This document shows positions 12,021 through 20,703 of a DNA stretch of 22,017 bases, in pieces (the stretch's first letter is position 1; each line of letters opens with the position of its first letter). The DNA comes from a virus, in IMG/VR virus record IMGVR_UViG_3300042906_000918, positions 1-22,017 of that record; one strand, 5' to 3'. Position numbers and translations under genes: made by a program. The notes under the pieces are model-generated. The model saw nothing but the letters and a program-made list of their open reading frames with translations. It was not told the DNA's origin and did not search any database.

Positions 12021-12059
12021 TAGTTCGGGGAAGTTACGGATAGTTTCGGCAGGAGTCAA
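12021..12059 (-). promoter_or_regulatory. Candidate early leftward promoter with phased 10-bp repeats
   Basis: On the minus strand TTGACT (12059-12054) and TAACTT (12036-12031) are separated by 17 bp, a reasonable -35/-10 pair for the early operon. Overlapping it on the plus strand are three 10-bp units: TAGTTCGGGG (12021-12030), AAGTTACGGA (12031-12040) and TAGTTTCGGC (12041-12050). A related AAGTTCGCGG is at 12085-12094. A half-site CGGTAG (12018-12023) lies about where transcription would start. Repressor or Cro-like binding is inferred. The -10 match is weak. Confidence 0.5.
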
Positions 12060-12091
12060 CCCCCTTCTGCACCTTTTTTCTGGAAAGTTCG

Positions 12092-12117
12092 CGGTAGCGC
12101 CGTAAACCCTGCTACCG
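12092..12117. promoter_or_regulatory. Candidate repressor operator (inverted repeat)
   Basis: CGGTAGC (12092-12098) and GCTACCG (12111-12117) form a perfect 7-bp inverted repeat with a 12-bp spacer, ending 7 bp before the repressor ATG. A CGGTAG half-site recurs at 12018-12023. Its size and symmetry fit a dimeric HTH repressor. It probably mediates autoregulation of the repressor gene. Confidence 0.55.
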
Positions 12118-12124
12118 TCAATAC

Positions 12125-12820
12125 ATGGAGCCAACCAATCAAGAAATCGGGGCGGCGCTGCGCGACCTGCTCGACGAGATGGGGGTCTTGCAGAAGGCTC
12201 TCGCCGCCCGCATGGGCAAGAAATCCGAGAGCACGGGGACCAAACTGGTGCAGGGCGAACTGCCGTTCACCGCGAAGCGGCTCGGCGAGATCGCGCTCGC
12301 GCTCGGCATCTCGCGCGACAGGCTCGACGCGGATCTACGCCGCATCATCAAGAAACGCCCGCTCTCGATGCGCGTCTCTGGCTCCATGCAGGAGAGCACC
12401 GCGCCGCGCGGCGTGCCGATGCTCGCGCCCGTCGCCGCCGGCAGCGCCAACCACAGCGCAGAGATCGACGCGCCGCGCTCGACGCTCCCGATCACCACGC
12501 AGGCCGTCGGCGACGAGCACGCGTTCGCGCTCGAGGTCGTCGGCGACTCCATGTCGCCGCTCTTCGACGAAGGCGACATCGTGGTCTGCTCGCCGCGCGC
12601 GTCGTGGAGCGACGGCGACCCGTGCTACGTCGAGATGCGCGACCGATCAGACACCATCAAGGCCGTCTACCGCCTCGGCGACGGACGCGTCGAGCTGCGC
12701 CCCCTCAACGCGCGGCGCCATCGCCCGCGAGTCGAGAGCGACGATCAGGACACAGGCCGAATCTCGCGCATCGTGCGCGTGGTCGGCCGATACACGCCGC
12801 TCAACGGGCGGCACAGGTAG
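12125..12820 (+). CDS. CI/LexA-type phage repressor with S24 peptidase domain
   Basis: The 231-residue protein should hold the lysogenic state by binding operators in the 11991-12124 region. Residues 5-70 are an XRE-like helix-turn-helix region. The S24 domain has a plausible self-cleavage site A105-G106, the nucleophile S142 (VVGDSMSPLFDEGD) and the general base K179 (DTIKAVYRL). This is the layout of RecA-responsive repressors, so SOS induction is likely. No Shine-Dalgarno is seen before the ATG at 12125, which suggests a leaderless or weakly translated message like lambda cI from PRM. It is one of only two confident rightward genes in the window. Confidence 0.93.
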   Translation: MEPTNQEIGAALRDLLDEMGVLQKALAARMGKKSESTGTKLVQGELPFTAKRLGEIALALGISRDRLDADLRRIIKKRPLSMRVSGSMQESTAPRGVPMLAPVAAGSANHSAEIDAPRSTLPITTQAVGDEHAFALEVVGDSMSPLFDEGDIVVCSPRASWSDGDPCYVEMRDRSDTIKAVYRLGDGRVELRPLNARRHRPRVESDDQDTGRISRIVRVVGRYTPLNGRHR

Positions 12821-13362: not shown

Positions 13363-14283
13363 TCAGTCGGCCCTTTCAAACTTGATGCTGATGCGGCGAT
13401 CTTTCGATTCTCCCTGCGGCACAGACAAGCACAACTTCATCCAGACCGCGCCGAGCGACTTCGGTGGACCGCCGCGCTCGATGTGCCAGCCGCCGAAGCC
13501 GTCGCCGTACTCGTCCTTGTAGGTGCCGCAGCGAACGTGGTACTGGGTGCTCAGTTCAACTTTGTAGTCGCCGTTCTTGGTCTTGAGCCGTTCGCGCTCG
13601 ACTTCCATGACCCATTTATCGTGCGTGTGACCACCAGCGATCACATCCGCGTCGGGAGTCCACGAGCCGATGCGCCGCACTCGCAGCGTGTCCATCGTCA
13701 TCAAACCGCCGCCGCCGGAGCCGTGGAAGTACTTCATGTTCAGGCAGTAGACCTGCGTGGTGTACTTGATACGAAACAGCACCCAGCCGCCGTAGCCACC
13801 CGAGTACACGCGATGCTTGCTTATGGCAGACATTCGCTCGCACAGACGCTCGGTGAGATCAGTCTCCTGATTCTTCAAGACGCTCGTCTCGTGGTTCCCG
13901 CGCGCGATCACCACGAAGTTCCGCGCGAACGGCGCGTAGAAATCCGCTGCGTGAGTCACGAGCGAATCGAAATAATCGTTCGCCATCGCGTGCTCGGGCC
14001 GCGTGACGCCGTGCTTGGCCCGCCGTGGATCGCCGCGCCCGCCCATTGCACAAAAATTATCTCCGAGATCGACAATTCCCGCGCCGCGATCGACCGCCTC
14101 GCGCAAGTGCTTCAACTCGAAATCGTGGTCGCTGTGCGGGTTGTCGTGGTGGCGATCGCTCGAGAGCAAAAACCAACGATCCTCTGACAGGCTTTTTAGC
14201 TCTATGTCCACGACGTGGATGTTCCGCGACTTCTGAGTGACGCGAAACAGCGGCGTCGGCGTCTTGGTTTTTTGCTTCCCCAT
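13363..14283 (-). CDS. Calcineurin-like metallophosphoesterase
   Basis: The 306-residue protein shows all the core metallophosphoesterase motifs: D43-R-H45 (SSDRHHD), G74-D75-N76, G129-N130-H131-E132, H188 (YFHGSG) and G218-H219-T220-H221. These bind two metals and cleave phosphomonoesters or phosphodiesters; phage members include phosphatases and nucleases. The ATG at 14283 has GGGAGG closely upstream and was preferred over a TTG at 14295. The gene ends 1 bp before the metallopeptidase gene. Substrate is unknown; DNA-end processing or signalling-nucleotide cleavage are possibilities only. Confidence 0.9.
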   Translation of the reverse strand: MGKQKTKTPTPLFRVTQKSRNIHVVDIELKSLSEDRWFLLSSDRHHDNPHSDHDFELKHLREAVDRGAGIVDLGDNFCAMGGRGDPRRAKHGVTRPEHAMANDYFDSLVTHAADFYAPFARNFVVIARGNHETSVLKNQETDLTERLCERMSAISKHRVYSGGYGGWVLFRIKYTTQVYCLNMKYFHGSGGGGLMTMDTLRVRRIGSWTPDADVIAGGHTHDKWVMEVERERLKTKNGDYKVELSTQYHVRCGTYKDEYGDGFGGWHIERGGPPKSLGAVWMKLCLSVPQGESKDRRISIKFERAD

Positions 14284-14295
14284 GCAGCCTCCCAA

Positions 14296-14592
14296 TCACC
14301 ATTTTTTTAGTGGGCACTCCGCCGCGGGCATCGTGAGTTTGATCGTCAGTCGAGCGCGAGCTGATGTCCCGCACCCGCACTTCCGGCAGAAGCCGATGTC
14401 ATCCGGCGGATCGGTATCGGTGGCTCGATGCTCGCACCCCATGCACGCAGCCTTGCGAGCCTCAAACACATCCGACGCGACAGGGCCGAGCACCGCGAGA
14501 GACGCCTCCGCCGCGACATACGACGCGACGTTGCGCACCGTGACCTTCCCCTTGCGCCAATCGAGGTTTTGTGCGCCTCTGCGTAGATACAT
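14296..14592 (-). CDS. Small zinc-ribbon protein
   Basis: The 98-residue protein has a helical N-terminal half and a treble-clef or ribbon-like C-terminus with C50-x2-C53, C69-x2-C72-x-C74 and C93 in the ending AECPLKKW. I recall similar short proteins (CEH..IGFC..CGC..KL.MP...CPL.KW) from phages and planctomycete prophages, function unknown. The ATG at 14592 follows CAGGAG. It lies 3 bp after the Cys-rich 669-aa gene and before the metallophosphoesterase, so three or four metal-binding proteins in a row end the late operon. Confidence 0.85.
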   Translation of the reverse strand: MYLRRGAQNLDWRKGKVTVRNVASYVAAEASLAVLGPVASDVFEARKAACMGCEHRATDTDPPDDIGFCRKCGCGTSARARLTIKLTMPAAECPLKKW

Positions 14593-14595
14593 GGC

Positions 14596-16605
14596 CTACT
14601 CCTGAACCTGGCATTCGATCTCGTGCCCGATGCAGTCGATCTGCCCCTCGAGCGAGTGAGGCGGGCAGTCGTTGTTTCCTTCGCACGTCGTGACAACCTG
14701 ACCGCAGCAGTCGAGCTCGCCCGCTGTTGTCGGGCAAGATCCACCGCAGCACATGTCTCCCTCCGAGTACAGCGGGTCGGCGTTGAGAATCCCGAGGCAC
14801 ACCGCCGTCGTGGCTTGGTGTGCGCCGATGATCGGTGGGAACAGATTCGGCACACCGAGTGGAGGGTTCTCAGGCCGACAGGTGTACGGCACGACGTCAG
14901 CCCACGAGTTACTCGATACGCGCGCGGGTATCAAGTACGAAAGCACAGAGCGAGCGCACGTTTCCTTGCCGTTGTTCTCGCAGTCCTCACAGGAGCCGCT
15001 GAACTGCGGAACGTACTTGTAGTACGCGTACACCATGCGAAGCCCCTCACAGAACGGCTCGACGCCGAACTGTTCACAGTCGCCGCTGCCGTTGCCTGTG
15101 TCGTTGCCGTCGCAGAGCGGCTGTCCGCCGCAGCCGACTTCGGGGATCGGGTCGCACTCGGGACACGACGAAGCGCACGAGCAGTTGGTGTAGGTGATGC
15201 CCTCACACTTGCACGATGCCGTGCACGGCGTGCAGGTGGGCGGCGGCAGCGGCCAACCACGAATAGCCTCGATGCACGTCGGATCGAAACGACCGCAGCC
15301 ATGCAGAATGGCTTGCTCCTCGTCGGTGATCCCGAGTTGCACACAGGCGTCGTCGCCGGGGGCGTTCCATCCCGCCCAAATCCAACCGCCCGGGACACCT
15401 CGGAAATACACCCACTGGCGATCAGCCCAGTATTCGTAGTCGCCAGCGTCGCCCGCAGTCCACCCGCCCGGGTAGTCGATCATGCACGACGCCTGCAACG
15501 TGGTGCCCGAGGCGGTGGCGTCGGCAGCTCGGAGAATCGGCTCGTCGATCTGAGCGGCGAACGGGTGCGTCAGCCGCCGGCGGAAGGGGCCAAGTTCATC
15601 CATGTCGCCAACAGCCTCTACACACGCGCCGTAGCCCGCTCCGGGGAATCGCGCGTCGAGGTCGATGAACGCCTGCCGCTGTTCCTCGCGCCAATCACGG
15701 GAGTCGAAATATCCGCCGGCGGCCATCTTCGCGAGCGTTGCCTGATCCGGCTGGATGCCCTGCGACGCGAGGTTCCGAACATCGTCAGCCTCGGTGCTCG
15801 TGATGAGTCCGCGACCCACGGCGTCCGTGAGATCGAAGTCGAACAGCGGAACGCCGCTGCAAGCGTGAATCCACCACTTCGGAACGAGATCGTCGCCTTG
15901 CACCGCCGGCCCGCCTGAGCACGAGTAGTCGCCGGTCACCGGGTCTTTCGTGCAGTCGGGTACGACGATTCGGTACTCGTTGCAGTCCGCCGTGCCTTGC
16001 GCGATGCGCCACCATCGCTCGAAGTACACGATGCCGAGAATCTGCCGATCGAGTCGTCCGAGTGTTCCGGAGAGCGCGTTGCCGTTCTTCCAACAGATCA
16101 CTTCCGGTGCCCACCGCGTGTCGGGGTCTTCCTGATACCGATCCAGTTGGTACTGGCTGTAGACCGAGTTACTGCTCGTTCCGCCACAGGCACAGCCCGA
16201 GGTGTTGCCGCCGAATGGTCCACTCGGGTTGCACGACGTGCAGTCGGGGTCATCGCCAAAGCACGCTCGAGTCGGGCACTCCGGGAACGGCGGCAGGATG
16301 TTCTTCAGCCCGCGTTGTGGCTGCGGACCGCCGAGGTACTGAACGCGCCAGAACGTGCCGTAATACTGATAGATGGCCTGCACCGGAGGCAGACCCGCGT
16401 GCGTCTTTGTCTCACAGATTTCACACCATGTGGGAGGGAATGTCTGCGTTTGCCACAGCACCTCGCGGCGCCCGCTGAATCCGGGACGCTCGCACCACAG
16501 AAGCAGGTGATCGCAGGAGTGACAGCACCCCGTGTCGATGGTGCCGCCGCTCAGGCAATCATGCGACGAACAGCCACCACAACAGCAGGATTTCTTGACG
16601 CTCAT
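14596..16605 (-). CDS. Cys-rich 669-aa late protein, possible tail fibre or adhesin
   Basis: By my count about 53 of 669 residues are cysteine (8 percent), in dense clusters at the N-terminus (SCCCGGCSSHDC, GCCHSC), around residues 440-505 (many C-x2-C and C-x-C pairs) and at the C-terminus (CCGGSC, DCCG). Between them are Trp/Tyr/Gly-rich segments (YWADRQWVYFRGVPGGWIWAG). The clusters could bind metals or form disulfides outside the cell. No signal peptide is seen. The ATG at 16605 overlaps the stop of the preceding virion-like gene. Its size and place after the tape measure and tail genes suggest a tail-tip or receptor-binding protein; no family was recognised. Confidence 0.85.
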   Translation of the reverse strand: MSVKKSCCCGGCSSHDCLSGGTIDTGCCHSCDHLLLWCERPGFSGRREVLWQTQTFPPTWCEICETKTHAGLPPVQAIYQYYGTFWRVQYLGGPQPQRGLKNILPPFPECPTRACFGDDPDCTSCNPSGPFGGNTSGCACGGTSSNSVYSQYQLDRYQEDPDTRWAPEVICWKNGNALSGTLGRLDRQILGIVYFERWWRIAQGTADCNEYRIVVPDCTKDPVTGDYSCSGGPAVQGDDLVPKWWIHACSGVPLFDFDLTDAVGRGLITSTEADDVRNLASQGIQPDQATLAKMAAGGYFDSRDWREEQRQAFIDLDARFPGAGYGACVEAVGDMDELGPFRRRLTHPFAAQIDEPILRAADATASGTTLQASCMIDYPGGWTAGDAGDYEYWADRQWVYFRGVPGGWIWAGWNAPGDDACVQLGITDEEQAILHGCGRFDPTCIEAIRGWPLPPPTCTPCTASCKCEGITYTNCSCASSCPECDPIPEVGCGGQPLCDGNDTGNGSGDCEQFGVEPFCEGLRMVYAYYKYVPQFSGSCEDCENNGKETCARSVLSYLIPARVSSNSWADVVPYTCRPENPPLGVPNLFPPIIGAHQATTAVCLGILNADPLYSEGDMCCGGSCPTTAGELDCCGQVVTTCEGNNDCPPHSLEGQIDCIGHEIECQVQE

Positions 16606-17516
16606 GCACACTCCCCGTCGATCGTGTTTGGCGGATCGAATACATGCCGGCCATTCGTCAGGCGACGCATCTCGACCACCGGATTCCGCTGCACCGATCC
16701 GCGCGTGAGTCCGATCGGACGCGGCAAGAACGTCTCGCCAGCGTCGATCTGATACGAAGCGCCCGCGAAGGATGAGGTGTTGTCGGCCTCCATCGCGTTG
16801 ATCGCGTATCGAGTCGTAGTCGTTCCCGAGCGCCCTCCCGGAACAAGCGCGAACGTGTCGCCCGATCCATACTCGGGCAACATCACCTCTTCCCACGAGT
16901 ACGCCCATCGGTAACTCGCACCCGATATGAGCGCCGAGCCGGTGATACGCGCGAAAAATCGCAGCGTCGATACACGCGAGAACAGAATGATCGCGCGTTT
17001 CGTGCCCGTTCCGGATTCACGCCACACCACGCGAGCGATGCCGTCGCTCACAAGCGAGAGTTTGGTCGCGTCGTTGTTCCGAACTTCGACGCAGCCCGGC
17101 AGTACCGTGGTACTCAGAGACTCAACACGGCAAGCCGCAAGCCCGGATACCTGGGCATGCCCGATCCCGTTGTTTGGGATCGCGCCCGCCAACACACCGA
17201 AATGCGCGGAGTGTGACGCGCGAGTGGGAATCGTGGCCTGCACCGTCGGACGAAATCGGAACTCGTCGAGATTGTCGGTCGGAGTGAACAGGACATCGCC
17301 GAATCCGACGATGTCGCCAGCGTCGAGAGCCGTGCCGGACGAGTTGCGGACACGAACCAATCCCGGCGCAACATTCGGAGAGAGCGAGCGCTGAGAGCTC
17401 GACTCCATCTGGGCGATCCGCCGCGCAGATTCGATCATCGCGTTCCACGCGGCAGCACTCGGTGCAAACGGCTCACCGGGCAGTACGCGCTTCAGAGGGT
17501 CGCCGGACGTCGACAT
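16602..17516 (-). CDS. Probable virion/tail protein (304 aa)
   Basis: The 304-residue protein begins PLKRVLPGEPFAPSAAAWNAMIESAR, a beginning I associate with phage structural proteins of planctomycete prophages. The rest is beta-rich, with Gly/Ser/Thr-rich segments, a middle part alternating VRVRNSSGTALDAGDIVGFG and similar, and C-terminal ETFLPRPIGLTRG. The composition suggests a trimeric or fibre-like virion protein. It is transcribed after the tape measure protein and one other probable tail gene and overlaps the Cys-rich gene by 4 bp. Function beyond that is not visible. Confidence 0.85.
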   Translation of the reverse strand: MSTSGDPLKRVLPGEPFAPSAAAWNAMIESARRIAQMESSSQRSLSPNVAPGLVRVRNSSGTALDAGDIVGFGDVLFTPTDNLDEFRFRPTVQATIPTRASHSAHFGVLAGAIPNNGIGHAQVSGLAACRVESLSTTVLPGCVEVRNNDATKLSLVSDGIARVVWRESGTGTKRAIILFSRVSTLRFFARITGSALISGASYRWAYSWEEVMLPEYGSGDTFALVPGGRSGTTTTRYAINAMEADNTSSFAGASYQIDAGETFLPRPIGLTRGSVQRNPVVEMRRLTNGRHVFDPPNTIDGECA

Positions 17517-17519
17517 GGT

Positions 17520-18320
17520 TCAGATTCCGAGTGACGAGAGATTCGCGTACGGGAACACCTGCACGACGTATGCGTGCTGCGGTCGTTTCACGACGCGCTT
17601 CGCCGTCGTGTCCTCCTCCTCAACCGAGTGGACCCACAGGTAATCCCAGCCCTTCTTCGTGACGCCTGTGAACGGGCCGAACGTCGCGCCGCTCACGTTC
17701 GGGAGCGCGCTGAACGAGAACGTGATCTCGTAGTCGCCGTTTGCGTTCGACGCGCCGCGAGCACCGAGGAACAGCACCTCGCCCGCGGCGAAGCCCTTGA
17801 ATGTGGCGTTGTTGACCTTCCCTGTGAGCGAGAAGATCGTCGCCTTGTAGGCCGACGTAAACGAAGCCGCAGCGATCGTGTGCGTCTCGCTGAAGTTATA
17901 GACGGGAACAGGCCGCGATATCCCCTGTGGGCCGTCGCTCGTGACGTTGATGCCACCCTTCATGTCGGGGGCAGTACCAGCGCCAGGTGCCGCGTACGAG
18001 GCGATCGTCGACAGAGCGAGGAACATCTGCTCGCTGCCGCCTGTCGTGTCGAACTCAAACCGAGGAGAAGCGCCTGCCGCACTCTCAAACCGGTTTGGTT
18101 GATATGTCACCGTAACCACGAACGTCGACGCGTCAATCGTTTCGCACGATCGACTTGATCGCGGCATCCCGTTGTAGGTCGATGGCGCCGCAGTCGCCAC
18201 AGCCGCGAGAGCATCGCTCTCGTCGGTTGCGTCCTTCACGGTGTATCGAAGACGGGCACTCGGGCTTGCGCCCGTCGTGACCTCAGTCCCCTCGAGATTC
18301 CATAGCGCCGTCGCTGGCAT
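17520..18320 (-). CDS. Probable tail protein (266 aa)
   Basis: The 266-residue protein is beta-rich with few charged residues and alternates Thr/Ser/Ala/Gly with aromatics (SFSALPNVSGATFGPF, KKGWDYLWVHSVEEED). The position directly after the tape measure gene is where distal tail proteins lie in siphophages. A strong AAGGAGG precedes the ATG at 18320. I do not match it to a named family such as Dit; the C-terminal GWDYLWV segment is one I recall from planctomycete prophage proteins. It ends 3 bp before the next gene. Confidence 0.85.
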   Translation of the reverse strand: MPATALWNLEGTEVTTGASPSARLRYTVKDATDESDALAAVATAAPSTYNGMPRSSRSCETIDASTFVVTVTYQPNRFESAAGASPRFEFDTTGGSEQMFLALSTIASYAAPGAGTAPDMKGGINVTSDGPQGISRPVPVYNFSETHTIAAASFTSAYKATIFSLTGKVNNATFKGFAAGEVLFLGARGASNANGDYEITFSFSALPNVSGATFGPFTGVTKKGWDYLWVHSVEEEDTTAKRVVKRPQHAYVVQVFPYANLSSLGI

Positions 18321-18329
18321 TCTTCCTCC

Positions 18330-20072
18330 TTACGACCACACGAGCGCGTCGCGCTGCCGTTTGCCTTGCTCGAGTAGCTTCTGTAGATACTCCGCCGATT
18401 TCTTTGTGTGCTCCTCGATTTTCGATCCCGAGTCACCGAACATTCCGCCAAGCGCGGCCGCGTTGAAACCGCCCATCGCCGAGAGGCGAGTCTGAATCTC
18501 CGCTTGCGCGGGGGCGAGATCGGGTAGAGCTGGAGCATCGACGCCCGGCAATTCCGGGAGCGCGGGCGCAGATGGCGCGATGTCATCGGGTTCGATCGGA
18601 CGCGACGCAGGAGACGCGTCTCGACGCGCTTCGCGGGCGCGCTTCGTCAACTCGTCGAGCTCGCGTTGCGCTTGCGATCCGCCGAAATCAATCAGCCCGC
18701 CCGATGCACTCAGCGCCGCACCGAAATCCGCGACCGATCCAAGCCCCGGAATCTTCCCGATGATCTTGTAGACCTTCGCCGCGAACGGAATCACCACGCG
18801 CGAAACGATTCCCTCGAGTCCTCGCCGGATGGCAACCTCGAGTCCCTGCACCGCGATCTCTCCCGCGAGACTCCAATCATCGGCGGCGATCGCGTCGGTC
18901 ACTCCCTGCCACGCCGCCACAAGGCCGCTCGCCGTCTCGACGCCGACATCCCACAGCGCGGAGAACGACGCCGCCGCCGCTCCGAGCAGCCCCGTCGCGT
19001 ACGCGATCGCGGCGCCGAGCGTGAGGACGCCGGCGACCGCGAGGAACACCGGGCCTGTTACCGCTGCCCATGCAGCAGTAGCCGCTGGGACGATTCCCGC
19101 GAACGCCGTCGCGACGAGCGAGGACGTTGCCGCCAACGCGCCGAGCACCGTAGACGTAGTTGAGATGAGGACGCCGAACGTCACAAGCCCTGCGCCGACG
19201 ATGCCGATCGCAGTGCCGACGCCGAGCAGCGCGACGCCCGCTGCCGTGACGCCGAGAACGAGCCCTTGGTTCTCGCGGATGAACTGGATCACGCGGCCGA
19301 CGAGCCCCTGCATCACCGCGACGAAGGCGTTCGCCACAGGTAGAAGCGCTTCACCAATCGCTACAGCGATGCGGCCGAACTGATCTTGCAGCACCTCGAT
19401 CTGCGCGCCGAGCGCGTCGGCCGCGTCGGCAGTCTCGCCGCTCAGGCTGAAGCCCATCTCGCGCGCCTTGCGCCGGAACTCGTCGATGCCAGCGCCGCCC
19501 GCTTCGAGGACGGGAAGCAACTTGTACGCGCTCTTGCCAAACAACTCCATCGCGAGCGCGAGGCGGTCGGTCGGGTTCTTGACCTTCGACAGCGCGTCGG
19601 CGATCTTGAGGAACTGCTCGTCGGCAGAGAGGTCGATCAGTTCGGACGCAGTCAGGCCGAGCCTGCCGAGCGCCTCGGCCGCGCCCTTCGATCCCTGCGC
19701 CGCCTCGGAGATGAAGCGGCGCAACTTCACGACCGACTTGGAAAACTCTTCCACGCTCGATCCGGCGTCCTTGAGCGCCATCTCCAGTTCGCTCATCAGC
19801 TCGGCCGTCAGGCCCGTCTGCGCAGCGAGGTCGGAGAAGTCGCCCGCGATCTTCGCGAACGCAGCCACGCTCGCAGCCGCCGCGACGACGATCGCACCGC
19901 CGAACGCGGTCACAGCCGCGCCGGCCATCGCGACCGCGCTCCCGATCTCCTTCACCTTCTCGCCGAACAACTCCATGCGCTTCTCGGCGCGACGAAGTGG
20001 CTCCGTGATTTTGTCGCGCATCGACAACTCGACGTACGCAGCGCCCGCCTTGATTCCGCCTTGCTTAGACAT
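18330..20072 (-). CDS. Tail tape measure protein
   Basis: The 580-residue protein has the classic tape measure plan: a helical N-terminus, a hydrophobic segment (about 43-75), a long helical coil (80-260), a large Ala/Gly/Val-rich membrane-like region (about 270-372), and a proline-rich then charged tail (PSAPALPELPGVDAPALP and onward). This identifies a long-tailed phage. By the usual rule of about 1.5 angstroms per residue the tail would be near 87 nm, which is inferred. AAGGGGAGG precedes the ATG at 20072, which overlaps the gp10-like gene by 8 bp. No chaperone frameshift pair is seen just upstream in this window. Confidence 0.93.
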   Translation of the reverse strand: MSKQGGIKAGAAYVELSMRDKITEPLRRAEKRMELFGEKVKEIGSAVAMAGAAVTAFGGAIVVAAAASVAAFAKIAGDFSDLAAQTGLTAELMSELEMALKDAGSSVEEFSKSVVKLRRFISEAAQGSKGAAEALGRLGLTASELIDLSADEQFLKIADALSKVKNPTDRLALAMELFGKSAYKLLPVLEAGGAGIDEFRRKAREMGFSLSGETADAADALGAQIEVLQDQFGRIAVAIGEALLPVANAFVAVMQGLVGRVIQFIRENQGLVLGVTAAGVALLGVGTAIGIVGAGLVTFGVLISTTSTVLGALAATSSLVATAFAGIVPAATAAWAAVTGPVFLAVAGVLTLGAAIAYATGLLGAAAASFSALWDVGVETASGLVAAWQGVTDAIAADDWSLAGEIAVQGLEVAIRRGLEGIVSRVVIPFAAKVYKIIGKIPGLGSVADFGAALSASGGLIDFGGSQAQRELDELTKRAREARRDASPASRPIEPDDIAPSAPALPELPGVDAPALPDLAPAQAEIQTRLSAMGGFNAAALGGMFGDSGSKIEEHTKKSAEYLQKLLEQGKRQRDALVWS

Positions 20073-20703
20073 CGCCGCCTCCCCTTACGCTCGTTGACCA
20101 CATCGGCGCGAGCTTCGGCAGCGAGCGCTCAAGCGCGGGCGCCATGAACGGCCGCTCCGCCACCCTGATCGTGCGCGGCCCGAATATCTCACGGTTGATC
20201 CGCGTCGCGCGGTCGGCCTGAGCCTGCGTGCGGATCTTGCCGTACACGACGCGCACGCCGGGGCGGACCTCCTTGCCCCGCTGCGACGCGCGGAGGAACT
20301 TGCCCGACGAGTCGCGCTTCACGCCCGCCGCCGCACCGCTCACCACGCGGATCTCGCCGCCGTCGCCGACATTGCGCACCACCGAGTTGTCGATCACCGA
20401 GTCGCCGCCGAACTCGAGGACATTCGGAGCGCCCGTGCCCCAATCGAACCTGACAGGCCCGACAACCGCCTCGCTGATTCCGCGCTCGTAATGCGCTTGG
20501 ATGCCGCGCTTCAGATCACCGCGAACAGAGCGCGGCGCCTGACCCGGTTGCGACGGACTCTTCCGCCGACGGATCGAGTTACGCGCAGCGCGACGCAGGT
20601 AGAGCGCGTTGCGCTTCAGCCCCTCGAACTCGATCCGCTCGACCTCAGTCTCGACGATCACGCGATCGAAGAACTTGGATGTGTCGGCCTTCATCGTGAA
20701 CAT
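20065..20703 (-). CDS. HK97-gp10-like head-tail or tail completion protein
   Basis: The 212-residue protein contains an RRRKSPSQPGQAPRSVRGDLKRGI-type segment near residues 46-70, a long middle insertion, and ends with RPFMAPALERSLPKL. The PSxPGxxP...L+.I and RPFM.PAL pair is typical of HK97 gp10/minor tail proteins that join tail to head or terminate the tail tube. The ATG at 20703 has AAGGAG upstream; a second ATG three codons in is possible. It lies directly before the tape measure gene, consistent with the tail module. Confidence 0.82.
   Translation of the reverse strand: MFTMKADTSKFFDRVIVETEVERIEFEGLKRNALYLRRAARNSIRRRKSPSQPGQAPRSVRGDLKRGIQAHYERGISEAVVGPVRFDWGTGAPNVLEFGGDSVIDNSVVRNVGDGGEIRVVSGAAAGVKRDSSGKFLRASQRGKEVRPGVRVVYGKIRTQAQADRATRINREIFGPRTIRVAERPFMAPALERSLPKLAPMWSTSVRGGGDV

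Follow-up and report, generated by a model that had tools for sequence, protein, structure and literature searches.

In the literature on cysteine-rich phage virion proteins, the only relevant precedents were Agrobacterium phage Milano and the lambda tail-tip protein gpL. Milano virions are disulfide-crosslinked, and their structural proteins contain 2.1–2.4% cysteine (PMC10811340, PMC10491603). gpL carries a [4Fe-4S] cluster on four cysteines exposed at the tip surface (PMC10721106). Here, we analyzed a cysteine-rich (Cys-rich) protein encoded in a 22,017-nucleotide stretch of IMG/VR virus record IMGVR_UViG_3300042906_000918, hereafter referred to as the window. Its likeness to Milano lies in elevated cysteine as a virion trait, with crosslinking shown for Milano and proposed here; the protein combines cysteine richness, a place among structural genes and the absence of an export signal. 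However, Milano spreads its cysteines over many known structural proteins, whereas here 7.9% cysteine is found in one protein whose tail neighbours contain 0–1%, and no structural protein of a phage was retrieved as a relative by sequence or by fold. gpL is likewise encoded just after the tape measure and has a cysteine-containing tail-tip role, but it has four cysteines and one cluster, in contrast to ~50 cysteines, 18 of them invariant, over 669 residues; no gpL-like match was obtained in sequence and fold searches. Collagen-like fibres, described in aquatic phages (PMC7029224, PMC10202952), directly precede the gene in its T4-like relatives, whereas collagen repeats are absent from the Cys-rich protein itself.

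A cysteine-rich protein family of uncultured tailed phages

The first-pass annotation had described an open reading frame with extreme cysteine content, and this was borne out: 53 of 669 residues (7.9%) are cysteine, against a mean of 1.4% over the other listed genes of the window. At the latter rate, the binomial probability of at least 53 cysteines is ~2e-23, which excludes a chance origin; even at a rate of 3% it is 3e-10. The tape measure has no cysteine and the 212-, 266- and 304-aa tail neighbours have 0, 1 and 3, respectively, so the cysteine wealth is not phage-wide. The gene lies on the minus strand (Table 1), and a plus-strand frame with the same coordinates was rejected as an artefact containing a stop. 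The start codon is supported by the alignment of relatives at Met1 and by an ATGA sequence in which it overlaps the stop of the preceding 304-aa gene. As had been claimed, a signal peptide is lacking: no hydrophobic N-terminus, signal peptide or transmembrane stretch was found in any full-length family member, which fits virion parts assembled in the cytoplasm.

Table 1. Positions of the Cys-rich gene, the regions of its product and the neighbouring genes in the window.
Feature	Coordinates	Strand	Basis
Cys-rich protein, 669 aa, 53 Cys, family defined here	14596..16605	-	sequence analysis
N-terminal Cys block, residues 1–40 (CCC-x2-C-x4-C ... GCCHxC)	16485..16605	-	alignment and model
Conserved Trp/Arg-rich core, residues 151–420, few Cys	15346..16155	-	alignment and model
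C-terminal Cys-dense part, residues 458–666	14608..15234	-	sequence and model
Tape-measure protein, 580 aa, 0 Cys	18330..20072	-	phrog_8462 match, E 1e-40
266-aa protein after the tape measure	17520..18320	-	no family match
304-aa fibre-like protein, directly upstream, ATGA-coupled	16602..17516	-	domain alignment
98-aa six-Cys zinc-ribbon-like protein, directly downstream	14296..14592	-	weak phrog_13558 / DUF6171-like
Metallophosphatase-like protein	13363..14295	-	PHROG 'DNA repair exonuclease'

Comparison with the closest distinct relative (L003, 77–80% identical) gave a dS of ~1.07, with synonymous sites near saturation, and a dN/dS of 0.15. All 53 cysteines are kept between the two proteins, although 22 of them are encoded by TGT in one gene and by TGC in the other. 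The Cys-rich gene is real and under purifying selection, and each cysteine is maintained at the protein level.

Iterated IMG/VR searches recovered ~25 relatives with 34–80% identity, and two further relatives were found on contigs of GTDB genomes, both freshwater MAGs, one labelled as an uncultured actinobacterium (Loclat) and the other as Alphaproteobacteria (pond). An absence of conservation in relatives, named beforehand as grounds for discarding the proposal, is thereby excluded. Family members contain 5.7–9.5% cysteine. All full-length members share 18 Cys with the window protein, together with 9 of its 19 Trp, 7 of its 31 Arg, one Glu (E196) and one Asp (D304); there are no invariant positions for His, Ser, Thr, Lys or Asn. 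A tblastn search of 50,697 annotated phage records with four different members as queries returned no relatives. Profile searches of the Cys-rich protein against Pfam, PHROGs, NCBIfam, PADLOC and PDB sequences were likewise empty, and a known family was rejected because nothing in the first four exceeded the cut-off. The earlier statement that no described family resembles the protein thus held in both sequence-profile and fold searches. This previously unnamed family, apparently of new fold, thus occurs repeatedly among uncultured tailed phages of several groups that are unrelated to each other, although the search of annotated phage records did not find it.

Gene neighbourhood and phage types

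The window is contained whole in IMGVR_UViG_3300042364_000225 (G006; L005/L041/L042), a contig of 35,122 bp that ends in a 127-bp terminal repeat and therefore represents a complete temperate phage genome. This parent phage carries a terminase, portal- and capsid-region genes, a tape measure, an S24 repressor and an integrase; the portal, capsid and integrase were named by reading the sequence, without a profile match. Its genes run in the order terminase, portal, capsid, fibres, lysis, tape measure, 266 aa, 304 aa, Cys-rich, ribbon and metallophosphatase. The Cys-rich gene hence closes the tail/fibre module as the third gene downstream of the tape measure, and the match of the tape measure to its PHROG confirmed the claimed position right after the tail genes. 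The C-terminal YxWxYxWEE domain of the 304-aa protein aligns with the neighbours that precede the Cys-rich gene in L015, L018 and L020, and hhalign of this fibre domain against the neighbours in T4-like phages gave a weak match (probability 19%, E 0.0012). A metallophosphatase gene also lies near the Cys-rich gene in 12–13 related loci, and a SprT-like gene is nearby in the window. Beside the integrase of the window, at ~263–308, we observed a tRNA-Gly(CCC)-like 3' half (anticodon read by eye), which, judged by its sequence, is likely the attP core.

The ribbon gene directly follows the Cys-rich gene in 18 of the 20 loci with an intact flank, 10 of which show a −4 start–stop overlap; it is not the next gene in L021 and in the T4-like L025. 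Its product carries the motif CxxC...CxxCGC...CPxxKW (in L022 at 12025–12456). The ribbon protein matched phrog_13558 with E-values of 1e-5 to 2e-6 and DUF6171 (PF19668) below the gathering cut-off, a likeness limited to this small partner, as the Cys-rich protein matches neither. As a lead into cultured phages, the ribbon yielded only a weak 33% match in Rhizobium phage RHph_TM30, where the surrounding region has no annotated structural genes.

The family occurs in phages of differing type. Siphovirus-like phages of ~35–46 kb include the window phage and that of L029; L015, L019 and L020 belong to a second type with proteins of 900–2300 aa after the ribbon gene; L025 and L028 are T4-like; and L027 (42.6 kb) has a terminase that is different again. 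Since both phage types and terminases differ, the gene has probably been transferred between phage lineages. In the close relatives represented by the window and L003, the Cys-rich, ribbon and metallophosphatase genes are held in common. The genes upstream are wholly different, with a tape-measure block in the window (16602–20703) and BppU-like/TNF-like genes in L003 (1556–2433). This contrast suggests that modules have been swapped immediately before the Cys-rich gene.

In the T4-like loci, the Cys-rich gene lies between gp20, the portal (Portal_T4, E 4e-173), and gp21, the prohead protease (E 8e-39), and is immediately preceded by a collagen-like fibre gene whose PPGPQGPPG repeats are flanked by Cys. 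This fibre gene (L025 2692–4095; L028 5371–6804) is inserted between gp20 and gp21 along with the Cys-rich gene. Other phages carry the Cys-rich gene after BppU-like/fibre genes. Structural genes thus adjoin it wherever the flank is readable, but the tail module does not in every case. The proposal of a tail-tip adhesin stands in part: the window and its siphovirus-like relatives have the gene in the tail/fibre module, as expected of a receptor-binding protein, and an adhesin is plausible there, whereas 'tail tip' cannot hold generally because the T4-like copies lie in the gp20–gp21 head/neck block. As its place varies among phage types, the gene is not linked to any single part of the virion.

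The suggested planctomycete host gained no support: in named genomes, relatives were confined to the two MAG contigs labelled actinobacterium and Alphaproteobacteria. The former (L029/L034/L035, G001:C349) is a complete phage genome of 45,657 bp with a 141-bp terminal repeat, simply binned with the MAG; binning is therefore weak evidence of the host, and the label was set aside. The 42-bp attP core did not point to a host either, being absent at ≤1 mismatch from the 396 and 398 genomes (~800 in total) sampled from the phyla of the two MAGs.

Cysteine arrangement and predicted fold

Cysteine clusters had been placed at both ends and in a central block. The N-terminal block and a dense C-terminal third were recovered, but the layout differs slightly in that residues 250–420 are nearly Cys-free. 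There are 11 cysteines in residues 1–64, 6 in 110–140, 5 in 171–249, only C328 and C374 in 250–420, ~15 in 421–519 and the rest up to residue 665. C8, C12, C17, C27 and C28 of the N-terminal block are invariant. The Cys-poor middle is the most conserved region of the family, with the motifs ERWW.IA, LVPKWW..ACSG, DWR..Q..A, LGPxRxR and RQWVYFRG.PGGW.W..W.

AlphaFold2 on the family alignment modelled the window protein with a pLDDT of 76.5 and a pTM of 0.80, and the L029 member with 79.7 and 0.82. Confidence was low for residues 1–14 of the window protein. Residues 151–420 are predicted to be mostly helical with Trp-rich strands, and the C-terminal part to contain a long beta hairpin/meander at residues 511–560; no signal of internal duplication was found for the two beta meanders. 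Foldseek gave no match at E ≤ 0.001 in PDB for either model or in BFVD, the viral predicted folds, for the window model. A known fold was thus rejected, and the models point to a likely new fold relative to these libraries, which hold no cellular predicted structures.

Several CxxC pairs retain one partner far more often than the other: C28 is present in 26/26 members against 14/26 for C31, C64 in 24/26 against 14/26 for C61, and C461 in 24/25 against 13/25 for C458. Such half-kept pairs are unlike zinc or Fe-S ribbons and would favour disulfides, as would the absence of an invariant His and the retention of all 53 cysteines in L003 through 22 codon switches. Joint losses were also observed: C328/C374 are both missing in L008 and L025, C140/C171 in L021, C620/C641 in L004 and L027, and C550/C619 in L018. 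A swap-randomised co-loss test over all Cys pairs was not significant (p 0.36–0.51), so these losses are suggestive only, and co-loss was dropped as statistical proof of pairing.

Possible roles of the protein

The family is conserved, under purifying selection and encoded in a structural module beside fibre-type genes, coupled to a fibre-like gene and usually followed by the ribbon gene. We infer that the protein is present in the virion, that its cysteines form disulfides rather than bind metal, that it takes part in host contact and that the ribbon protein serves it as a holdase or escort. Our preferred reading, held with moderate confidence, is a structural protein of the host-contact (fibre/tail-tip) apparatus that is made in the cytoplasm and locked by disulfides after lysis. 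The protein would be synthesised and assembled into the particle in the cytoplasm, its chain would fold around the Trp/Arg core, and dense intramolecular, perhaps inter-protein, disulfides would form when the particle has left the reducing interior of the cell; the ribbon protein may act as a holdase or escort for the reduced chain before assembly. The conservation of the core exceeds that expected of a receptor-binding tip, which counts against this reading.

The clusters might instead bind several Zn ions or Fe-S clusters, giving a metal-loaded virion protein built for stability or for offering iron to host receptors (a 'Ferrojan horse'). The gpL tail tip, with its [4Fe-4S] on four cysteines, is a precedent (PMC10721106), the direct downstream neighbour is a six-Cys ribbon, and the N-terminal CCC-x2-C-x4-C is invariant or almost so. 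However, profile searches matched no metal-binding family, no His and only a single Asp and a single Glu are invariant, and the CxxC pairs are often broken across the family. Vicinal CC and CCC are also unusual in metal-binding sites, and we consider a metal-loaded protein unlikely.

A late protein left out of the particle, serving as an assembly, redox or metal-sequestering factor, would agree with the position of the gene at the structural/recombination border in several phages, where PD-(D/E)XK/RecT-like genes follow (by reading of the sequences), with the metallophosphatase and SprT-like genes beside it in the window and with the strongly conserved core. We likewise consider this unlikely: the upstream neighbours are of fibre type in most loci, T4-like loci have a block of portal, fibre and protease genes there, and 640–900 residues are large for a chaperone. 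An enzyme, such as a glycan- or peptide-cleaving tail enzyme with a fold stapled by disulfides, could use the invariant E196 and D304 and the cluster of invariant Arg/Trp, but without an invariant Ser, His, Lys or Asn and without any enzyme family or fold match it is highly improbable.

If the cysteines of the preferred virion protein do form disulfides, ~25 bonds must arise after assembly in a particle built in a reducing cytoplasm, at a cysteine density several times that of the Milano structural proteins; the control of thiol oxidation in assembly and release, and the surface met by the tip, would then become testable questions. A bolder version, to which we assign a low probability, is a new virion module in which a hyper-disulfide protein of new fold is held in the reduced state by a co-translated zinc-ribbon escort, becomes oxidised only after lysis and acts as a redox-triggered lock or adhesive fibre tip. 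Were it true, tailed phages that are unrelated to one another and infect uncultured bacteria, some of them from freshwater, would have the module in common.

One group of these phages has a further conserved neighbour. A protein of 76–94 aa without a useful family match (DDITPLYxAExAAR...FWRHQIGNAMLCNAL) is encoded by the gene that immediately precedes the Cys-rich gene in L016 (9723–10004) and L029 (9720–10004), and also in L022, L026 and L030.
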